Of a stretch of DNA of 64,000 nt, positions 50,922 through 58,914 are shown piece by piece (within the stretch, counting starts at the first letter, position 1; every line of letters starts with the position of its first letter). Both the position numbers and the translations under genes were made by a program. The notes under the pieces were generated by a model. The model was not told the DNA's origin and did no database searches. It saw nothing but the letters and a program-made list of their open reading frames with translations. This stretch comes from an uncultured Clostridia bacterium (GTDB taxonomy: Bacteria > Bacillota > Clostridia > Oscillospirales > Ruminococcaceae), in the NCBI GenBank assembly GCA_944385905.1, contig CALWZA010000017.1, positions 1 to 64,000 of the forward strand, read 5' to 3'.

Positions 50922-51638
50922 ATGAAAAATATTACCGAACGTCTTTACAACGGTCTTTTTAAGGAAAACCCGACTTTCGTTCTGATGCTTGGAATGTGTC
51001 CGACCCTTGCGGTTACGTCAAGCGCTTTAAACGGTATCGGAATGGGACTTTCAACGACTGCTGTTCTTATAATGTCAAATTTAATGATATCTCTGCTCAG
51101 AAATTTCATTCCTCAGAAGGTGCGCATGCCGGCTTATATAGTCATTGTCGCTTCGTTTGTCACTGTTGTTCAGCTTTTAATGCAGGCTTATGTACGCTCT
51201 TTATATGACACACTGGGAATATATATTCCCCTGATAGTTGTAAACTGCATAATACTCGGACGAGCGGAAAGCTACGCCTCTAAAAATCCTCCCCTTTCCT
51301 CGCTTTTCGACGGTCTCGGAATGGGACTCGGCTTTACAATCGGACTTACTCTCATCGGTATTTTCAGAGAGCTTCTCGGCTCAGGCACATTTTTAGGCAT
51401 GAATATCCCTGTGTTTACCGATAACTTCACTACGGTTTCTATTATGGTTCTCGCTCCCGGCGCTTTTTTTGTTCTAGCCTGCTTAACCGCTTTGCAAAGC
51501 AAGTTTAAAGCTCCGAGCGCCACCAACAGGAAAAATGGCTTTGCTTGCAGCGGAAACTGTCACTCATGCAAGGATTCCGGCTGCTCAATCCAAAAAAGCT
51601 TTCAGTCTGATTTAACCGAAAAGGAGGCGGCTAAATGA
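50922..51638 (+). CDS. rnfE: Rnf complex subunit RnfE with a Cys-rich C-terminal tail
   Basis: Integral membrane subunit, 238 aa, six transmembrane helices. The cysteines LGMCPTLAV and VVNCIILGRAE are those that share the membrane [2Fe-2S] cluster with RnfA. Unlike the usual roughly 200-residue protein, it has a cytosol-side or tail extension with C209, C213, C216 and C221 (ACSGNCHSCKDSGC), a pattern that could hold a metal or an extra cluster. The start at 50922 is chosen by homology (MKNITERL); AAAGGA is 12 nt upstream, directly before an ATG at 50910. Overlaps rnfA by 4 nt. Confidence 0.92.
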   Translation: MKNITERLYNGLFKENPTFVLMLGMCPTLAVTSSALNGIGMGLSTTAVLIMSNLMISLLRNFIPQKVRMPAYIVIVASFVTVVQLLMQAYVRSLYDTLGIYIPLIVVNCIILGRAESYASKNPPLSSLFDGLGMGLGFTIGLTLIGIFRELLGSGTFLGMNIPVFTDNFTTVSIMVLAPGAFFVLACLTALQSKFKAPSATNRKNGFACSGNCHSCKDSGCSIQKSFQSDLTEKEAAK

Positions 51639-52219
51639 ATTACTTTACAGAGCTTCTTCTTACCGCTGCCGCCGCCGCTCTTGTAAATAACGTTGTGCTT
51701 AGCAGATTTTTAGGACTTTGCCCGTTTCTCGGCGTATCTAAAAAGACTGAAACCGCATTAGGCATGAGCGCCGCCGTGTTATTTGTTATGACAATCGCTT
51801 CCGCCGCAACTTGGGTTATTGATAAGATGATTCTCCGAACTCTTAGCCTCACATATCTGCGTACAATTGTTTTTATAATCGTCATTGCGGCGCTTGTTCA
51901 AATTGTCGAGATGATTCTGAAAAAGAAGATTCCCTCTCTTTATTCCTCTCTCGGAGTTTATCTTCCGCTTATAACGACAAACTGCGCCGTTTTGGGAATA
52001 GCAATTGACAATGTTCAGAAAGGCCTCGGTTTTGCTGTGAGCATGGCGTCTTCGATAGGTACGTCAGTCGGATTTGGAGTTGCTATTGTATTGATGGCGG
52101 GTATCCGGGAACGAATAGACGGCAACAATGTTCCCGATTCATTTAAAGGAATGCCCATTGTGCTGATAACGGCAGGGCTTATGGCGATTGCGTTTATGGG
52201 TTTTCAGGGCGTATTATAA
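51635..52219 (+). CDS. rnfA: Rnf complex subunit RnfA
   Basis: Integral membrane subunit, 194 aa, six transmembrane helices, inverted-topology homologue of RnfE. The conserved cysteines are in FLGLCPFLGVS and TTNCAVLGIA. GGAGG is 8 nt upstream of the ATG, inside the end of rnfE. Confidence 0.95.
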   Translation: MNYFTELLLTAAAAALVNNVVLSRFLGLCPFLGVSKKTETALGMSAAVLFVMTIASAATWVIDKMILRTLSLTYLRTIVFIIVIAALVQIVEMILKKKIPSLYSSLGVYLPLITTNCAVLGIAIDNVQKGLGFAVSMASSIGTSVGFGVAIVLMAGIRERIDGNNVPDSFKGMPIVLITAGLMAIAFMGFQGVL

Positions 52220-52255
52220 CAATCAGCGGCTTTTCGGAAAGGAACGGTTTTTGAT

Positions 52256-53059
52256 ATGAATTTTACTGACATTATTATTGCCTCCGCTGTTGTCGGAGGT
52301 GTCGGTCTGCTTGTCGGTCTGATTCTCGGAATTGCGGGTGATAAGTTCAAGGTCACTGTAGATGAAAGAGTAGAAAAACTACGAATCGCTTTGCCAGGAA
52401 ACAACTGCGGCGGATGCGGATATCCGGGCTGCGACGGATTTGCCCGTGCTGTTGCCGAGGGAAAAGCTCCTGTGAACGGCTGTCCTGTCGGAGGAGCGAA
52501 AACCGCTGAAAAAATAGCGGAAATCATGGGAGTTAAAAGCGATTCACCAACCGAAAAAAAAGTCGCATTTGTGCGGTGTGCAGGAGACCGAAGCAACACA
52601 AGGCAAAATTACGTCTATGACGGACCTATGGACTGTCAGGCGGCATACTTGTCTCCCGGTCACGGCTCTAAAATGTGCTCATACGGCTGTATGGGACTTG
52701 CTACATGCGCTAAGGCATGCCCTTTTGACGCTATCAGAATGGTTGACGGTCTTGCGGTTGTTGATAAGGAAAAATGCACAGCATGCGGAATTTGCGTCGC
52801 GGCTTGCCCCAAAAACCTAATTGAGCTAATTCCCTATGATTCAAAATACGCTGTAAGATGCTCCTCGCATGAAAAAGGCAAAAAAGTCAAAGAAGCCTGC
52901 GACGTCGGATGTATCGGATGCGGCATTTGCGCCAAGGTTTGCCCGACCGAAGCTATTACCGTTTCTGACAATCTCGCTCACATAGACCAGCAAAAATGCA
53001 TCAGATGCGGAAAATGCGCTGAAAAATGCCCGACAAAAATTATCAGAACGCTCAGGTAG
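52256..53059 (+). CDS. rnfB: Rnf complex subunit RnfB
   Basis: Electron-entry subunit that accepts electrons from ferredoxin, 267 aa. One N-terminal transmembrane helix, then the NCGGCGYPGCDGFA cluster motif and four ferredoxin-type [4Fe-4S] motifs: CMGLATCAKACPFDAI, CTACGICVAACPKNLI, CIGCGICAKVCPTEAI and CIRCGKCAEKCPTKII. Cluster number suits a long electron wire. Last of the core rnf genes; the lipoprotein gene follows closely. Confidence 0.95.
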   Translation: MNFTDIIIASAVVGGVGLLVGLILGIAGDKFKVTVDERVEKLRIALPGNNCGGCGYPGCDGFARAVAEGKAPVNGCPVGGAKTAEKIAEIMGVKSDSPTEKKVAFVRCAGDRSNTRQNYVYDGPMDCQAAYLSPGHGSKMCSYGCMGLATCAKACPFDAIRMVDGLAVVDKEKCTACGICVAACPKNLIELIPYDSKYAVRCSSHEKGKKVKEACDVGCIGCGICAKVCPTEAITVSDNLAHIDQQKCIRCGKCAEKCPTKIIRTLR

Positions 53060-53126
53060 CGTTATAATGTATAAACCGCCTCCCTTTGTAAAAACTAAAA
53101 CAAAAAGTTTATTGGGAGGCATTTTT

Positions 53127-54206
53127 ATGAAAAAAATTATTGCCCTGCTTATATGCGCCGCAATGACCCTGTCGCTTTCCGCTTGCGGAAACAACGATGA
53201 GGATAATTATACCGGAACAACCGCTAAAACAACTCAAAGCACTACGCTGAACACTTCGGACAATGAAGAAGATAATGCGGTTCCTCTTAAAACAGGGATG
53301 TGCGTGATTAACTCTTTAGCGTCTTCAAAAAGCGCATCTGAAGATTCAGACGGCAAAATAAAGGCTGAATCCACCTTTGCCGCTGTTTTGGTTGATTCGG
53401 ACGGAAAAGTTGTTCAGGCTCAGCTCGACTGTGCGGAAAGCGAGACGGCTATTTCAATAACCGGAGAAATTGACGTTGAGGGCGGCACCGAATTTAAATC
53501 CAAAGGAGAGCTCGGAGACAATTACGGAATGAAAGACGCATCCGGTATTGACAAGGAATGGTATGAGCAGGCGGAAGCTTTCTGCAATTTTATTATCGGA
53601 AAAACCCAAAACGAAATTGCGGATATATCGCTTGACGAAAGCGGCAGGCCTGCCGACGCAGATTTGGCTTCGGGATGCACAATTAAAGTCGGAGCAATCA
53701 AAGAGGCGTTTGTAAAAGCGTGCGAATCAGCCTCAGACATGGGCGCAAAACAGGGCGACGAGCTGAAAATTGCAATCACCACGGTTGCTTCGGCAAGCTC
53801 AAAAAGCGCTTCGGAGGACGGAAACGGAAGCGTTGAAATAGACTCTGAATTCTGCGCTCTTACTTTAGACAAAAGCGGCATAATCTCAAGTATTCTGGTC
53901 GACTCTTCTCAGGGAGAGGTTGAATTCGACCTCGGCGGCATTATTGTTACCGACGTAACAAAGCCTTATCCCACAAAAAAGGAAGAAGGCGACGAGTACG
54001 GAATGAAAGCCGCATCGGCTATCGGAAAGGAATGGTATGAACAGGCAAAGGCTATTGAGCAATACGCAAAAGGTCTTACCGTTCAAAAGCTTTCCGATAC
54101 TCCCTTTGAAAACCAAAAGCCCGCTCCCGATTCGGATCTTTCCGCAGGCTGCACTATGAAAGCAGAGGGAATAATTGAAAACGCAGTTAAAGCGGCAAAT
54201 TCATAA
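53127..54206 (+). CDS. Rnf-linked lipoprotein made of two tandem repeats
   Basis: 359-aa surface lipoprotein (lipobox L-S-A-C, Cys20) with a Thr-rich tether. The mature part is a tandem duplication of about 150 residues. Each copy runs from ASSKSASED through GDxYGMKxAS, IxKEWYEQA and PxxDxDLxxGCT to a final helix, with one Cys per copy (GCTI and GCTM). I do not recognise a family with a known function. It lies between rnfB and apbE in the same direction, so a redox or assembly role at the outer face is plausible but unproven. The start has GGGAGG 8 nt upstream. Confidence 0.8.
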   Translation: MKKIIALLICAAMTLSLSACGNNDEDNYTGTTAKTTQSTTLNTSDNEEDNAVPLKTGMCVINSLASSKSASEDSDGKIKAESTFAAVLVDSDGKVVQAQLDCAESETAISITGEIDVEGGTEFKSKGELGDNYGMKDASGIDKEWYEQAEAFCNFIIGKTQNEIADISLDESGRPADADLASGCTIKVGAIKEAFVKACESASDMGAKQGDELKIAITTVASASSKSASEDGNGSVEIDSEFCALTLDKSGIISSILVDSSQGEVEFDLGGIIVTDVTKPYPTKKEEGDEYGMKAASAIGKEWYEQAKAIEQYAKGLTVQKLSDTPFENQKPAPDSDLSAGCTMKAEGIIENAVKAANS

Positions 54207-54237
54207 CATTTAAAAATATTGTGTAGGCGGTGACGGT

Positions 54238-55317
54238 TTGAAATCTAAAGCATTATTTTTTAATTCGCTGATATCCTCGGTTTTAATGTGCACAGTATTT
54301 CTTTCGGGATGCGGTGCTGAGCCGGCTGAGATTCAGCAAACCGGCAAAGAACGCTTTACTAAAACCTACCTTGATGTTTTTGACACTGTCACCACTGTTA
54401 TCGGATACGCTGAAAGCAGTGAGGAATTTGAAAATCAGGTTTCACTGCTTTATGAAGATTTAAAATACTACCACAAGCTGTTTGATATCTACAACAGCTA
54501 TGACGGTTTAACAAATTTAAAAACTGTAAACGATAACGCAGGCTTATCCCCTGTTGAGTGCGACCCTGAAATTATAAGTCTTTTAACCCTTTGCAAAGAT
54601 TTATATACCAAAACAAGCGGCATGACTAACGTTGCGATGGGCTCAGTGCTGTCCGTTTGGCACAGCTATCGGGAGCAGGGACTGGCTGACCCGGAAAACG
54701 CGAAGCTTCCGCCTTATGAGGAGCTTTCTTCTTCGGCGGCTCACACAAATATTGAAAATGTGACTTTAGACAGCGAGCTGAATACGGTTTTTCTCAAAGA
54801 CCCAGAAATGTCGCTTGACGTCGGCGCTGTCGCAAAAGGATACGCCGCGCAAAAGGCCGCCGATTCAGCCGCAAACCGTGGATTTGAGAATTTTCTTTTA
54901 AGCGTCGGAGGAAACGTGTGCGCTGTCGGATTTAAAGGTGACGGAACTTCTTTGTGGTCTGTCGGAATTGAAAACCCATTTGAAGACAGCAGAGATAGAA
55001 ATTTATTTGTTACGGAAATTTCGGGACTTTCGGTTGTTACAAGCGGCGATTATCAGCGCTACTATGAAGTTGATTCAAAAAGATACTGCCACATTATATC
55101 GCCGCTGACGCTTATGCCGAACGAGGAATTTAAGTCTGTTACAGTTATCGGAACTGATTCGGGAATATGCGACGGCCTTTCTACAGCGCTTTTCAATATG
55201 AGCTATGACGAGGGCAAAGATTTGATTGATAACACAAAAGGATATAACGCCATATGGGTTTATCCTGACGGAGAAGTTAAATACACGCCGGGCTTTCAAC
55301 GGCTGATTAAAAAATAA
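54238..55317 (+). CDS. apbE: ApbE FAD:protein FMN transferase, lipoprotein
   Basis: Attaches FMN through a phosphoester bond to Thr/Ser of exported flavoproteins; 359 aa, anchored by a lipobox (L-S-G-C, Cys25). Family motifs: DVGAVAKGYAAQKAAD, LLSVGGNVCAVG and YCHIISPLT followed by SVTVIGTDSGICDGLSTALFNM. Start TTG at 54238 with GGCGGTGA upstream. Its obvious targets are RnfD, RnfG and the FMN-binding protein encoded right after it. Confidence 0.93.
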   Translation: MKSKALFFNSLISSVLMCTVFLSGCGAEPAEIQQTGKERFTKTYLDVFDTVTTVIGYAESSEEFENQVSLLYEDLKYYHKLFDIYNSYDGLTNLKTVNDNAGLSPVECDPEIISLLTLCKDLYTKTSGMTNVAMGSVLSVWHSYREQGLADPENAKLPPYEELSSSAAHTNIENVTLDSELNTVFLKDPEMSLDVGAVAKGYAAQKAADSAANRGFENFLLSVGGNVCAVGFKGDGTSLWSVGIENPFEDSRDRNLFVTEISGLSVVTSGDYQRYYEVDSKRYCHIISPLTLMPNEEFKSVTVIGTDSGICDGLSTALFNMSYDEGKDLIDNTKGYNAIWVYPDGEVKYTPGFQRLIKK

Positions 55318-55358
55318 TCGGCGGTTTAGGGCAAAATTATCAAAGGAGGAATATTTTT

Positions 55359-55937
55359 ATGAGCTATCCGAACGAGGATTTCAGAGCAGACGGAAAAAAC
55401 AAGTTCGGCTGGCTGATTTCTGCCGCTTTGATGCTTATATTAGCCGCCGCATTAATCATATTTTCAAGATTTATTCTTTCCGCACGGGAAAACAAATATT
55501 CGCAGAGGCTCTCGCCCATTCCGGAAATTATATCTTATGAGGAAATTGATATTGAAGGCTTTGACAAGGAATTGTACAATCTCAGGGGAATTAAAAAGGG
55601 CTTTGATGCCGACGGAAATCTTGCCGCTTATATAGTTAAAACCTTTTCGGAGGGATATCACGGAAAGGTTGTGGTTGAAACTGCTGTGACGCCTGACGCA
55701 AAATATGCTTTATACATGAAAGTTACAAGTCAGGACGAGACCGAAGGACTCGGAGAGCTTATTATCGAAGAGCCGTTTGCTTCACAGTTTGACGGAATTC
55801 AGCTTCCAGTTCATTTAAGTATGGACGGAATGAGCGGCGCTCAGATTGACGGCGTTTCAAGAGCGACCTATTCTTCAAGAGCTGTTGTAGAGGCTGTAAA
55901 TCTTGCTCAAAGTTTAGTCAAAGATTTCTTTAAATGA
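55359..55937 (+). CDS. RnfG-like membrane-anchored FMN-binding protein
   Basis: 192 aa: one N-terminal transmembrane segment (about 19-39), then an FMN_bind-type domain facing outward. The loop QDETEGLGELI corresponds to the ETPGLGAK loop of RnfG, and the flavin site appears as VSRATYSSRAVVEAV with T170 as probable acceptor; the usual Gly of SGAT is Arg here. It is a second, divergent RnfG paralogue, following apbE by 41 nt with GGAGG ribosome site. It probably carries FMN and could pass electrons beyond the core complex. Confidence 0.85.
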   Translation: MSYPNEDFRADGKNKFGWLISAALMLILAAALIIFSRFILSARENKYSQRLSPIPEIISYEEIDIEGFDKELYNLRGIKKGFDADGNLAAYIVKTFSEGYHGKVVVETAVTPDAKYALYMKVTSQDETEGLGELIIEEPFASQFDGIQLPVHLSMDGMSGAQIDGVSRATYSSRAVVEAVNLAQSLVKDFFK

Positions 55938-55984: not shown

Positions 55985-56011
55985 AGAGGTATGAGTTTTC
56001 TCATACCTCTT
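55985..56011 (+). terminator. Terminator of the rnf locus
   Basis: AGAGGTATGAG, TTTT loop, CTCATACCTCT then TTGCTGTTTA: an 11-bp perfect stem. It also faces the convergent acidic-peptide gene. Confidence 0.8.
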
Positions 56012-56040: not shown

Positions 56041-56274
56041 TTAGTTTCTCTTCTTCGCAACTACTGCAGCAGCGCCTGCAAGAACGATAGGCATTGCGGC
56101 GAGAACAGCACCTGTTGTCGGGTTTGTATCCTCGTCGTCAACGTCAACCTCAACGTCGTCTCCAACGGTTACTTCTTCTTCTTCATCGGGCTTTTCCTCA
56201 GCGAAAGCTGTTACTGCCATTGCGGAAAATGCCATAGCACCTGCAGCCAAAAGAGCAAGCAACTTCTTTGTCAT
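56041..56274 (-). CDS. Tiny secreted acidic peptide with an NPxTG sorting-like signal
   Basis: 77 aa in three parts: a signal peptide (1-25, ending AFA), a mature segment with 15 Asp/Glu among residues 26-50, and a sorting-type tail NPTTG (51-55), a hydrophobic stretch and KKRN. This is the layout of sortase-anchored proteins, with a peptide of only about 29 residues left after both cleavages. GGAGGAG ribosome site 6-8 nt before the ATG. A TATAAT lies upstream on its strand without a good -35. It is divergent from feoAB, so cation or iron binding at the wall is conceivable; function unknown. Confidence 0.75.
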   Translation of the reverse strand: MTKKLLALLAAGAMAFSAMAVTAFAEEKPDEEEEVTVGDDVEVDVDDEDTNPTTGAVLAAMPIVLAGAAAVVAKKRN

Positions 56275-56493
56275 TTACAATCTCCTCCTTTTTGTTATCA
56301 GCGATCATTCTCGCCTTAATGTAAACATTATAACTTATTGTAAATCATATTTCTATTGGCACTTTGCACAATTATCCTCATTCAGTATTATGCTTTAATA
56401 TCAAATTTGACTCTGAATTCATCTTGCCGTAACAAAAATACTGTTCTGTCATAAAATAAAGAAAAAGTATATCACACATTTGCGAGGTATTGC

Positions 56494-56742
56494 ATGAAAA
56501 AGCACAACCTACGGTTTTTATGCGAAAAGAACCTGTCTGATCTTTGTTTAAACGAATCCGCATCAGTGAAACATATAAAATCCGGTACAGATATGTGCAA
56601 AAGATTCTGGGATATGGGGATTATTGAAGGTACGCCGGTAAAATGCGTTTTATGCGGCTCATGCGGATTAAAGGCTTTTCTTATTCGAGGCGCAGTTTAC
56701 GCTCTCAGAAAAGAGGATGCCGAAAACATAATTATTGAATAA
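56494..56742 (+). CDS. feoA: Ferrous iron transport protein A
   Basis: 82-aa SH3-like FeoA domain: LCLNESASVKHI, RFWDMGIIEGTPVKCV and AVYALRKEDAENIIIE match the family fold. It carries four extra cysteines, including CVLCGSCG in the strand region. GAGG ribosome site 7 nt upstream. It precedes feoB by 21 nt, in one operon. A TTGACT with a weak TAACAA 17 nt later is the only promoter candidate upstream. Confidence 0.88.
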   Translation: MKKHNLRFLCEKNLSDLCLNESASVKHIKSGTDMCKRFWDMGIIEGTPVKCVLCGSCGLKAFLIRGAVYALRKEDAENIIIE

Positions 56743-56763
56743 CTGCGAAAGGGCTTGTACATA

Positions 56764-58914
56764 ATGGGACTTACGGTTAGATCTGTCGGAAAAAACGCCG
56801 TCGGCACCGGCATAAAAATAAACAAGAATGATGAAAACTATGTGATCGCTATCGCCGGAAACCCGAATGTCGGCAAAAGCACGGTTTTTAACGCTTTGAC
56901 AGGCTTGAGACAGCACACGGGAAACTGGTCGGGCAAGACAGTTGAAAACGCAAGCGGACGTTTAAATTTCGACAAAACAGAAATATCCGTTATAGACATA
57001 CCCGGAACTTATTCCCTGCTTGCCCACTCGCCCGAAGAAGAAATCGCAAGAGATTTTATCTGTTTTGATCAGCCTGACGCTGTAATTATAGTCTGCGACG
57101 CAACCTGTCTTGAAAAAAATCTAAATCTTGTTTTGCAGATACTTGAAATCACCGGCAATGCCGTGGTTTGCGTAAATCTTATGGACGAAGCTGAAAAGCT
57201 CGGAATTAATCTGAACCTGACTGCCCTGTCAAAACGTCTGGGCGTTCCGGTACTCCCTGCCTGCGCGAGAAACGGAAAAGGTCTTTCAAAACTCATAAAA
57301 CAAACTTTATCTGTATGCAGACAAAAAATCTCATACAATCCGTTTACAGTCAAATATCTTCCATCGATTGAAGAAGCGGTAAGCATGGTTGAACCTGCTG
57401 TATCGGATATCGCAAAGAGTAACAATATTTCATCACGCTGGCTTGCGCTAAGGCTTATTGAAAATGACTCGTCGCTTATAAAGTCTCTCAACAGAGCTTT
57501 AAATATTGATATTCTTTCAATCAGCGACGTATCTGAAAGTATCCGCAAAGCAGTTTCATTTCTTGAAAGCAACGGTGTACCTCAGGATAAAATCAGAGAA
57601 AAAATCGTTTCCTGCATTTTTCTTAACGCTGAGGATATTTGCCTTGAGGCTATTCCTTCAAAAAGCTCGGATCACTGGAATAAATATATAAAAATTGACA
57701 GATTTTTAACAGGAAAACTGACCGGCATTCCCATTATGGTGATTTTGCTAGGCGCCATACTTTGGCTTACAATTGTAGGAGCAAACTATCCTTCCGAGAT
57801 AATTTCGTCGTTTTTATTTTTCATCGGAGATAAGCTGCGGTCGTTATTTGAATATATACATATTCCCGATTTGATAACAAGCGCTATAATCGACGGCGTT
57901 TACAAGGTTCTTGCATGGGTTACATCGGTTATGCTGCCTCCGATGGCAATTTTTTTCCCGTTGTTTACAATCTTAGAGGACTTGGGATATTTGCCGAGAG
58001 TAGCTTTCAACCTTGACGGAGCGTTTAAAAAATGTTCGGCGTGCGGCAAACAGAGTCTGACAATGGCGATGGGATTCGGCTGCAACGCCGCAGGAGTAGT
58101 AGGGTGCAGAATTATTGACTCTCCCCGTGAACGCCTGGCGGCTGTTATTACAAACAGTTTTGTTCCGTGCAACGGGCGGTTTCCTACTCTTATTTCAATT
58201 ATATCCATGTTTTTTATTGCAGGTGTTTCGGGACTGAGCGGCTCATTACTTTCAGCGCTCATGCTTACAGCGATAATAGTGTTTTCTGTCTTGATGACTC
58301 TTGCCGCAACGAAATTCCTGTCCTTAACGATACTTAAAGGTATTCCGTCGTCATTTTCGCTTGAGCTTCCTCCCTACCGCAGGCCGCAGGTCGCTAAAGT
58401 TATTGTACGATCAATACTTGACCGCACTGTATTTGTTTTAGCAAGAGCGGTTGCTGTTGCGGCTCCGGCAGGTCTTGTCATTTGGCTTATGGCAAACATA
58501 TCAATTTCAGGAAACACAATTCTCAATATCTGCTCGGATTTTCTCGACCCTTTGGGCAGGGCTCTCGGTATGGACGGTGTGATACTTCTTGCCTTCATAC
58601 TCGGATTTCCAGCCAACGAAATTGTTATTCCTCTTATTATCATGGCGTATATGTCGGGCGGAACTCTGACTGAGCTCGGAAGCCTTTCACAGCTTAAAGA
58701 ATTACTGGTTGCAAACGGGTGGACCTGGGTTACCGCTTTATGCACAATGCTGTTTTCGCTTATGCACTGGCCTTGCTCAACGACTTGTCTTACAATAAAA
58801 AAAGAAACGGGCGGAATCAAATGGACAGCTCTCGCAATCCTGCTCCCGACCGTTTGCGGAATGATAATTTGCTTTATTGTGGCTACGGCATCAAAAATTT
58901 TTCCATTCTCATAA
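56764..58914 (+). CDS. feoB: Ferrous iron transporter FeoB
   Basis: 716-aa GTPase-coupled Fe2+ importer. G1 GNPNVGKST (32-40), G3 DIPGT, G4 NLMDE. A helical GDI region follows, then about eight or more transmembrane helices. The pore motif reads GFGCNAAGVVGCRI (about 434-447) and, further on, FVPCNGRFPTL, so both cysteines of the Fe path are kept although the first motif differs from the classic GCNVPAIMATR. The start ATG 56764 has AAAGGG 10 nt upstream. The 3' end overlaps the convergent DUF4190 gene by 32 nt. Confidence 0.94.
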   Translation: MGLTVRSVGKNAVGTGIKINKNDENYVIAIAGNPNVGKSTVFNALTGLRQHTGNWSGKTVENASGRLNFDKTEISVIDIPGTYSLLAHSPEEEIARDFICFDQPDAVIIVCDATCLEKNLNLVLQILEITGNAVVCVNLMDEAEKLGINLNLTALSKRLGVPVLPACARNGKGLSKLIKQTLSVCRQKISYNPFTVKYLPSIEEAVSMVEPAVSDIAKSNNISSRWLALRLIENDSSLIKSLNRALNIDILSISDVSESIRKAVSFLESNGVPQDKIREKIVSCIFLNAEDICLEAIPSKSSDHWNKYIKIDRFLTGKLTGIPIMVILLGAILWLTIVGANYPSEIISSFLFFIGDKLRSLFEYIHIPDLITSAIIDGVYKVLAWVTSVMLPPMAIFFPLFTILEDLGYLPRVAFNLDGAFKKCSACGKQSLTMAMGFGCNAAGVVGCRIIDSPRERLAAVITNSFVPCNGRFPTLISIISMFFIAGVSGLSGSLLSALMLTAIIVFSVLMTLAATKFLSLTILKGIPSSFSLELPPYRRPQVAKVIVRSILDRTVFVLARAVAVAAPAGLVIWLMANISISGNTILNICSDFLDPLGRALGMDGVILLAFILGFPANEIVIPLIIMAYMSGGTLTELGSLSQLKELLVANGWTWVTALCTMLFSLMHWPCSTTCLTIKKETGGIKWTALAILLPTVCGMIICFIVATASKIFPFS

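Follow-up and report, generated by a model that had tools for sequence, protein, structure and literature searches.

A predicted headless NPxTG-sorted peptide beside feoAB whose acidic stalk recurs in larger sorted proteins of the same Ruminococcaceae genome

What would an acidic open reading frame of 77 codons be for, next to the genes of an iron importer? The frame lies on the minus strand (56041..56274, ATG to TAA) of the window, i.e., the whole stretch of 64,000 nucleotides from an uncultured member of the Ruminococcaceae that was analysed here, and it runs from 56274 to 56041 exactly as first read. It is divergent from feoA (56494..56742, plus strand; PF04023) and feoB (56755..58914, plus strand; PF02421, PF07670, and PF07664), which are both confirmed by Pfam and neither of which is judged to be part of the system described below. 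The initial annotation had taken the product for a sorted acidic micro-peptide that, anchored in the wall beside an iron importer, could gather cations; the sorted micro-peptide, its sortases, and its counterparts have stood, whereas the iron link has not.

The translation falls into three parts, MTKKLLALLAAGAMAFSAMAVTAFA, EEKPDEEEEVTVGDDVEVDVDDEDTNPTT, and GAVLAAMPIVLAGAAAVVAKKRN, with the cuts placed by eye. The first is a predicted signal peptide (residues 1–25, MTKK...TAFA; 56200..56274, minus strand), for which cleavage is put after A25, between AFA and EE. The second is the putative mature part (residues 26–54; 56113..56199, minus strand), an acidic stalk followed by NPTT, which comprises the 29 residues, 15 of them D or E, that had been counted at the outset. 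The third is the NPTTG sorting signal with a hydrophobic helix and a KKRN tail (56044..56124, minus strand; 18.7 bits and E 0.0057 against NF033846), which shares NPTT with the mature part, the sorting cut being placed at T54. These elements bear out the prediction of a wall-sorted acidic micro-peptide.

The micro-ORF looks like more than a chance frame and like a real, if tiny, gene. A Shine–Dalgarno sequence, AAAAAGGAGG, stands 5' of the ATG in the region AAAAAGGAGGAGA (56281..56293, minus strand), and a promoter-like site, TAGAAA-17-TATAAT (56327..56355, minus strand; 10 of 12 bases), has its TATAAT 58 nt before the ATG; since three such sites were found in the region and 2.0 are expected by chance, the promoter scan is weak evidence. 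Downstream, there is a hairpin resembling an intrinsic terminator (55985..56010, minus strand), with 11 pairs followed by CTTTTTGTTT, the only one in the region against 0.4 expected. Near the 5' end of the predicted leader, a small hairpin, GGCGA...TCGCT (56300..56315, minus strand), folds at −6.1 kcal/mol as a single sequence, and many leaders show a small 5' hairpin in such single-sequence folds. No pairing emerged when 22 leaders were folded to a consensus, so no structure is claimed for the leader RNA.

Where, then, does the stalk come from? The genome (1.63 Mb in 40 contigs, 91% complete) has nine matches to NF033846 at E up to 10, of which six exceed the cut-off; at the same loose E, matches also occur, all below the cut-off, in 12 of 14 control genomes. 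Five of the nine combine an acidic stalk with NPxTG, namely the window ORF, a 453-aa protein, one in a 472-aa frame, a 108-aa protein, and a fragment at a contig edge. The other four end in a PETGA tail and, like one LPQTG protein of this genome, are without this stalk. A motif like EEKPDxEEEVTVDD precedes NPxTG in the complete stalk-sharing members; the micro-gene therefore amounts to a signal peptide plus this shared tail. The signal peptide, too, has a likeness, being 69% identical over 26 residues to that of a long paralogue. No family scored above its cut-off when four longer NPxTG proteins and the 108-aa protein were scanned with Pfam. The last of these is a second short acidic sorted protein, whose neighbours resemble ABC transporters (by eye). 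As to the second tail type of the genome, PAPETGA tails are near-identical in three neighbouring proteins (L032, G000:C8:2275-3971).

The window peptide, used alone as a query, finds three of the same-genome tails (E 2.7e-11 to 8.2e-9) and, with E 8.3e-5, the fourth at the contig edge; when the query is a profile of the five own tails, E is 5.2e-20 or lower for the other four, all five being rows of the profile. Its stalk scores 0.55, 0.47, 0.44, and 0.34 against the four others of its genome, values reached by 0, 5, 17, and 614 of 2000 composition shuffles, respectively, so that the score of the contig-edge stalk (contig C29) is not above what composition gives. Against 55 long stalks of the related genus g68 (see below), the mean is 0.29 and the maximum is 0.45. 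Between the own tails, the third codon position varies most (e.g., over 54 codons, positions 1, 2, and 3 differ 13, 15, and 32 times), which suggests that the protein sequence is held by selection and that the copies are not recent; a recent duplication of the tail was considered and rejected in view of the many third-position changes in the nucleotide alignments. By its sequence, the window peptide is a headless member of the NPxTG-sorted proteins of its genome, with a mature part that corresponds to the stalk of its larger paralogues. The acidic part is, thus, a stalk common to larger sorted proteins and no special iron tag.

An important question is whether other species keep such a gene. 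The window genus is represented by one genome in the comparison set, and no orthologue at the same position is known. A first contig scan with the window peptide gave 594 pattern matches and no confirmed relative. A profile of five tails reaches at least 43 of 396 family genomes at E 0.001, and a profile of nine short peptides reaches at least 18 of the 396 at E 1e-9, with the own genome and long proteins included in both counts. Headless acidic peptides of 74–119 aa occur in the genera g68, g3 (five genomes), g116 (two), g22 (two), and g63 (one), and a less acidic one occurs in g16. Outside the family, an order-wide draw of 394 genomes yielded, among the matches listed, no full-length short hit at E 1e-7; the listed hits in other families cover part of the model only and lie in longer frames.

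The richest sample is g68, where 30 of 31 species genomes have a full-length headless match (7 of the 30 were in the query profile) and where the exception, G421, is 84% complete. Among the matches listed, there is one per genome, beside longer proteins with similar tails. All 30 peptides have a mature part of 28–50 residues, a net charge of −9 to −18, and GGAGG before the start (all 30 entered these counts and the stalk parsing, and 28 entered the summary table). A signal peptide, a stalk, and an anchor with no head are, thus, kept together in related species, and the counterparts with NPxTG tails that the initial annotation asked for do exist, in g68 as in other genera. Sorted peptides of 75–120 codons in Clostridia can, it appears, be real genes.

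Neighbours were compared in seven larger g68 loci, taken from nine fetched regions (L203 gave no ORF by pattern, and L205 had no start). All seven have a sugar-epimerase-like gene, which we take to be galE, upstream on the same strand (a further gene intervenes in a single locus), and in five the next gene downstream is formate-THF ligase; these identities come from Pfam for one pair (PF16363/PF01370 and PF01268) and from sequence likeness for the rest. In the short flanks of the 30 loci, the epimerase appears in 17 and the ligase in 13. No headless gene is present at the epimerase locus of the window genome. Two further observations concern the counterparts: TGTATAAT is found within 110 nt before the start in 28 of the 30 headless genes of g68, mostly 50–55 nt off, and G159 has two apparent headless acidic sorted peptides in tandem (L299, 1011-1361 and 1489-1827).

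Comparison of the parts within and between g68 genomes separates stalk from anchor. In 28 genomes, the stalk of the headless peptide scores 0.554 with the sampled long proteins of its own genome, 0.280 with those of other genomes, and 0.312 with headless orthologues; the own-genome score is above the mean for other genomes in all 28 and above that for orthologues in 27, and none of 10,000 label permutations, which ignore relatedness, reached the observed own-genome mean. Against the single best stalk from another genome, it is higher in only 17 of the 28, and against the best orthologue in only 13, partly because near-identical orthologues exist in several species. The anchor, which holds the sorting motif, has no genome-specific match in the same 28 genomes (0.769 with own long proteins, 0.792 with orthologues, and 0.713 with other long proteins; own over orthologue in 14 of 28). 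The stalk match goes beyond composition, as all 100 shuffles score lower in 49 of 54 pairs. In 48 of the 54, it starts at the first mature residue; the alignment was given the mature part alone, so this reveals a shared start of the mature peptide with a boundary that could lie further out. The same pattern appears in small in the window's own genome, in the four paralogue stalk scores given above against the g68 long mean of 0.29. The sample behind these figures consists of long tails hand-picked from the listed high scorers, a choice that favours likeness to headless peptides in general, and it covers these sampled tails rather than every long sorted protein of the genomes. From 58 long-tail regions fetched, 55 were parsed (L289, L292, and L294 were lost to the pattern N[PA]xTG); G240 and G422, which had no parsed long tail, were left out of the score comparison, and the G421 tail, which had no headless partner, was used only as an other-genome tail. 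One long sorted protein on a 3-kb contig, L251 (G442:C138:990-2069), has a stalk like that of species G067 and not like its own, and may be a foreign gene or part of a misbinned contig.

How could stalks come to match within a genome? Recent homogenisation of DNA in g68 was considered and rejected, the 3' flanks not being shared (mean score 16.6 within genomes and 16.1 between). The longest exact run has a median of 14.5 nt and a maximum of 32. Amino acid identity of the aligned stalks is 0.70 within a genome, 0.47 for orthologues, and 0.46 across genomes; where residues are identical, their codons agree in 61.6%, 59.4%, and 53.3% of cases, respectively, with 52.5% expected for independent codons. 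At an amino acid identity of 0.6–0.7, the fraction of same codons comes to 0.597 for 20 within-genome pairs and to 0.713 for 23 orthologue pairs; fewer shared codons at equal identity favour protein constraint over recent DNA homogenisation. Conversion nevertheless keeps a place in the explanation, because some pairs look recent (e.g., G410 L257 at 0.90 and G338 L240 at 0.81), because the shared-codon fraction is 0.708 in 28 long–long pairs from single genomes, and because the within-genome mean (0.616) is above the expected 0.525. The matching could reflect either old gene conversion combined with constraint or co-evolution with a partner.

The genome also has enzymes that could act on such a peptide. 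Three sortases are present, one on contig C19 and a tandem pair on C8, and the best family of all three is TIGR03064 (SrtB), with a score of 165.8 for the C19 enzyme, the only one above the cut-off of 153.75, and scores of 128.1 and 113.5 for the C8 pair. For the two that were searched against PDB sequences, the hits were mainly sortase B chains. The sortases of matching class that the initial reading depended on are, thus, at hand as three class-B-like candidates. Downstream of the C19 sortase, the second gene encodes an LPQTG protein, with a LytR_cpsA_psr protein between; the C8 pair is therefore the likelier NPxTG partner and most likely the one that would act on the window peptide. In g68, all 31 genomes have SrtB hits, with one of the 31 having a hit over the TIGR03064 cut-off, and 30 of 31 have a tandem pair, as read from coordinates, like the own genome. 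In B. anthracis, SrtB acts on NPKTG and also depends on the residues that surround the motif (PMC11987632); in the gut bacterium M. gnavus, SPXTG proteins require SrtB3 to be localised to the wall (PMC13121745). Besides this, the second sortase of the tandem pair (L033, 6379-7275) starts with a lipobox-like LSGC (by eye) and may be a lipoprotein, and a sortase-like match in a 105-aa frame (G422:C12:88581-89129) lies about 140 bases from a headless gene.

Taken with the peptide's anatomy, the shared stalk, the conserved counterparts, and the matching of sampled g68 stalks, the presence of these sortases suggests the following scheme. If expressed, the peptide would be exported by means of its signal peptide; a class-B-like sortase, the C8 tandem pair being the likeliest, would cleave it between T54 and G55, and it would be joined to the cell wall. 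The product would be a polyanionic wall stub of 29 residues, consisting of the stalk on which larger proteins bear their heads. That the gene encodes a headless NPxTG-sorted peptide that is exported and class B sorted to leave such a stub is, on balance, probable. As to its role, the preference is for a polyanionic filler made of the standard stalk, which is a guess: buried in the wall and sharing its route of export and sorting with the headed proteins, the filler would let head density and fixed wall charge be set independently.

A bolder and unlikely idea is that, in each genome of this lineage, a private stalk tags a set of the sorted proteins and that one headless gene makes the tag alone, as a blank or filler that tunes the density at which heads are displayed; stalks would then co-evolve within a genome because the tandem SrtB pair, or a stalk brush, reads them. 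Stalks of sorted surface proteins are usually regarded as passive spacers. The sampled stalks match within a genome and differ between species, and the anchors are alike; if selection is responsible, stalks carry information, and a conserved gene that makes only a stalk and an anchor is a natural handle for testing this. Judged by titles and opening abstract lines, none of the papers listed in literature searches deals with headless NPxTG peptides or stalk matching.

The main rival to the filler, though itself unlikely, is that the peptide is a blank competitor, which, by having the same stalk and anchor, would compete for a sortase or partner and so thin the big surface proteins. A rival of this kind must copy the parts that are recognised, and the stalk match is indeed genome-specific and runs from the first mature residue offered to the alignment in 48 of 54 pairs; so, too, the single full-length headless gene listed for each of 30 of 31 g68 genomes sits beside longer proteins with similar tails. 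However, it is the anchor that holds the sorting motif, and the anchor has no genome-specific match, the reading of the stalk by a sortase is only putative, and the window genome has its second short sorted protein of 108 aa.

The proposal made initially, that the peptide gathers iron or another metal in connection with feoAB, now seems improbable. Position and charge alone speak for it, the gene being divergent from feoAB and its product strongly acidic, and SrtB of S. aureus and B. anthracis acts on the haem protein IsdC (PMC11987632). Against it, a search of 56275-56493 for a Fur or DtxR consensus (with up to 3 mismatches) gave no match, so that the promoter region is without the box expected of an iron-regulated wall protein, and a search for operators between the micro-gene and feoA gave no inverted repeat. 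Moreover, a pattern search of the fetched flanks of 80 named FeoB relatives (46 of the 80 loci were of 12 kb or longer, contig ends cutting the view in the rest) found no short acidic NPxTG gene; one locus (L123) has a 67-aa frame with an SPETG tail that is not acidic and lacks an ATG, and another (L156) has a 585-aa frame with an LPQTG tail. The headless genes of other genera have other neighbours, and, in the loci compared, the linkage to feoAB is seen in the window genome only. The iron reading is, thus, not supported; generic cation binding by the peptide is possible. Elsewhere in the window, a relaxed Fur-box pattern has 13 matches against 5.1 expected, as many as in none of 100 shuffles, and none of the 13 lies between the ORF and feoA. 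Beside the ORF, 51635-55937 is occupied by an electron-transport cluster with an Rnf-Nqr subunit (PF02508), a ferredoxin with an FeS domain, presumably RnfB, ApbE, and an FMN_bind protein.

It is equally improbable that the gene is a remnant, i.e., a larger surface protein that lost its head by deletion and left a drifting stub: the lack of a head and the likeness of its signal peptide to that of the long paralogue would fit, but the third-position bias between tails, the gene signals in place, and the keeping of headless genes in 30 of 31 g68 species argue against drift. Least credible is that a sensor reads the C-terminal fragment left after cleavage as a signal, with sorting as its release route, as is reportedly proposed for sortase-released C-terminal peptides in an oral streptococcus, on which a literature search found no paper; the anchor is well conserved, but the sampled long-protein anchors are about as similar (0.769 for own long proteins and 0.792 for orthologues) and would release much the same piece.

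The headless stub, to return to the preferred reading, can be compared with four known systems. The first is NF033846 (Rumino_NPXTG, NCBIfam), with which the window peptide has in common a C terminus of NPxTG, hydrophobic helix, and basic tail, and which two of its stalk-sharing paralogues match at the cut-off in the genome search, although one of the two scores only 17.0 when scanned as a whole protein. The tail of the window peptide, by contrast, scores 17.8 bits (18.7 in the genome search) against a curated cut-off of 23.5, and most of the family matches listed sit in frames of 200 aa or more. The second is the EF2685/EF0750 group of sortase-dependent surface proteins (NF053819), which are likewise small and sorted; at a threshold of E 0.01, four of the nine members of set A2 have a match to it, the strongest at 2e-4, whereas the window peptide is not among the matches listed at that threshold. 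The third consists of SrtB substrates such as IsdC (NPQTN and NPKTG), which share Asn-Pro-x-Thr, a class B sortase, and a disordered linker before the anchor (PMC11987632); the window peptide differs in having no head domain, and no haem locus was found here. Finally, by way of analogy only, wall-linked polyanions such as teichoic acids and polyglutamate suggest a possible job, that of providing fixed negative charge in the wall, with the difference that the product here would be a ribosomal peptide joined to the wall by a sortase.
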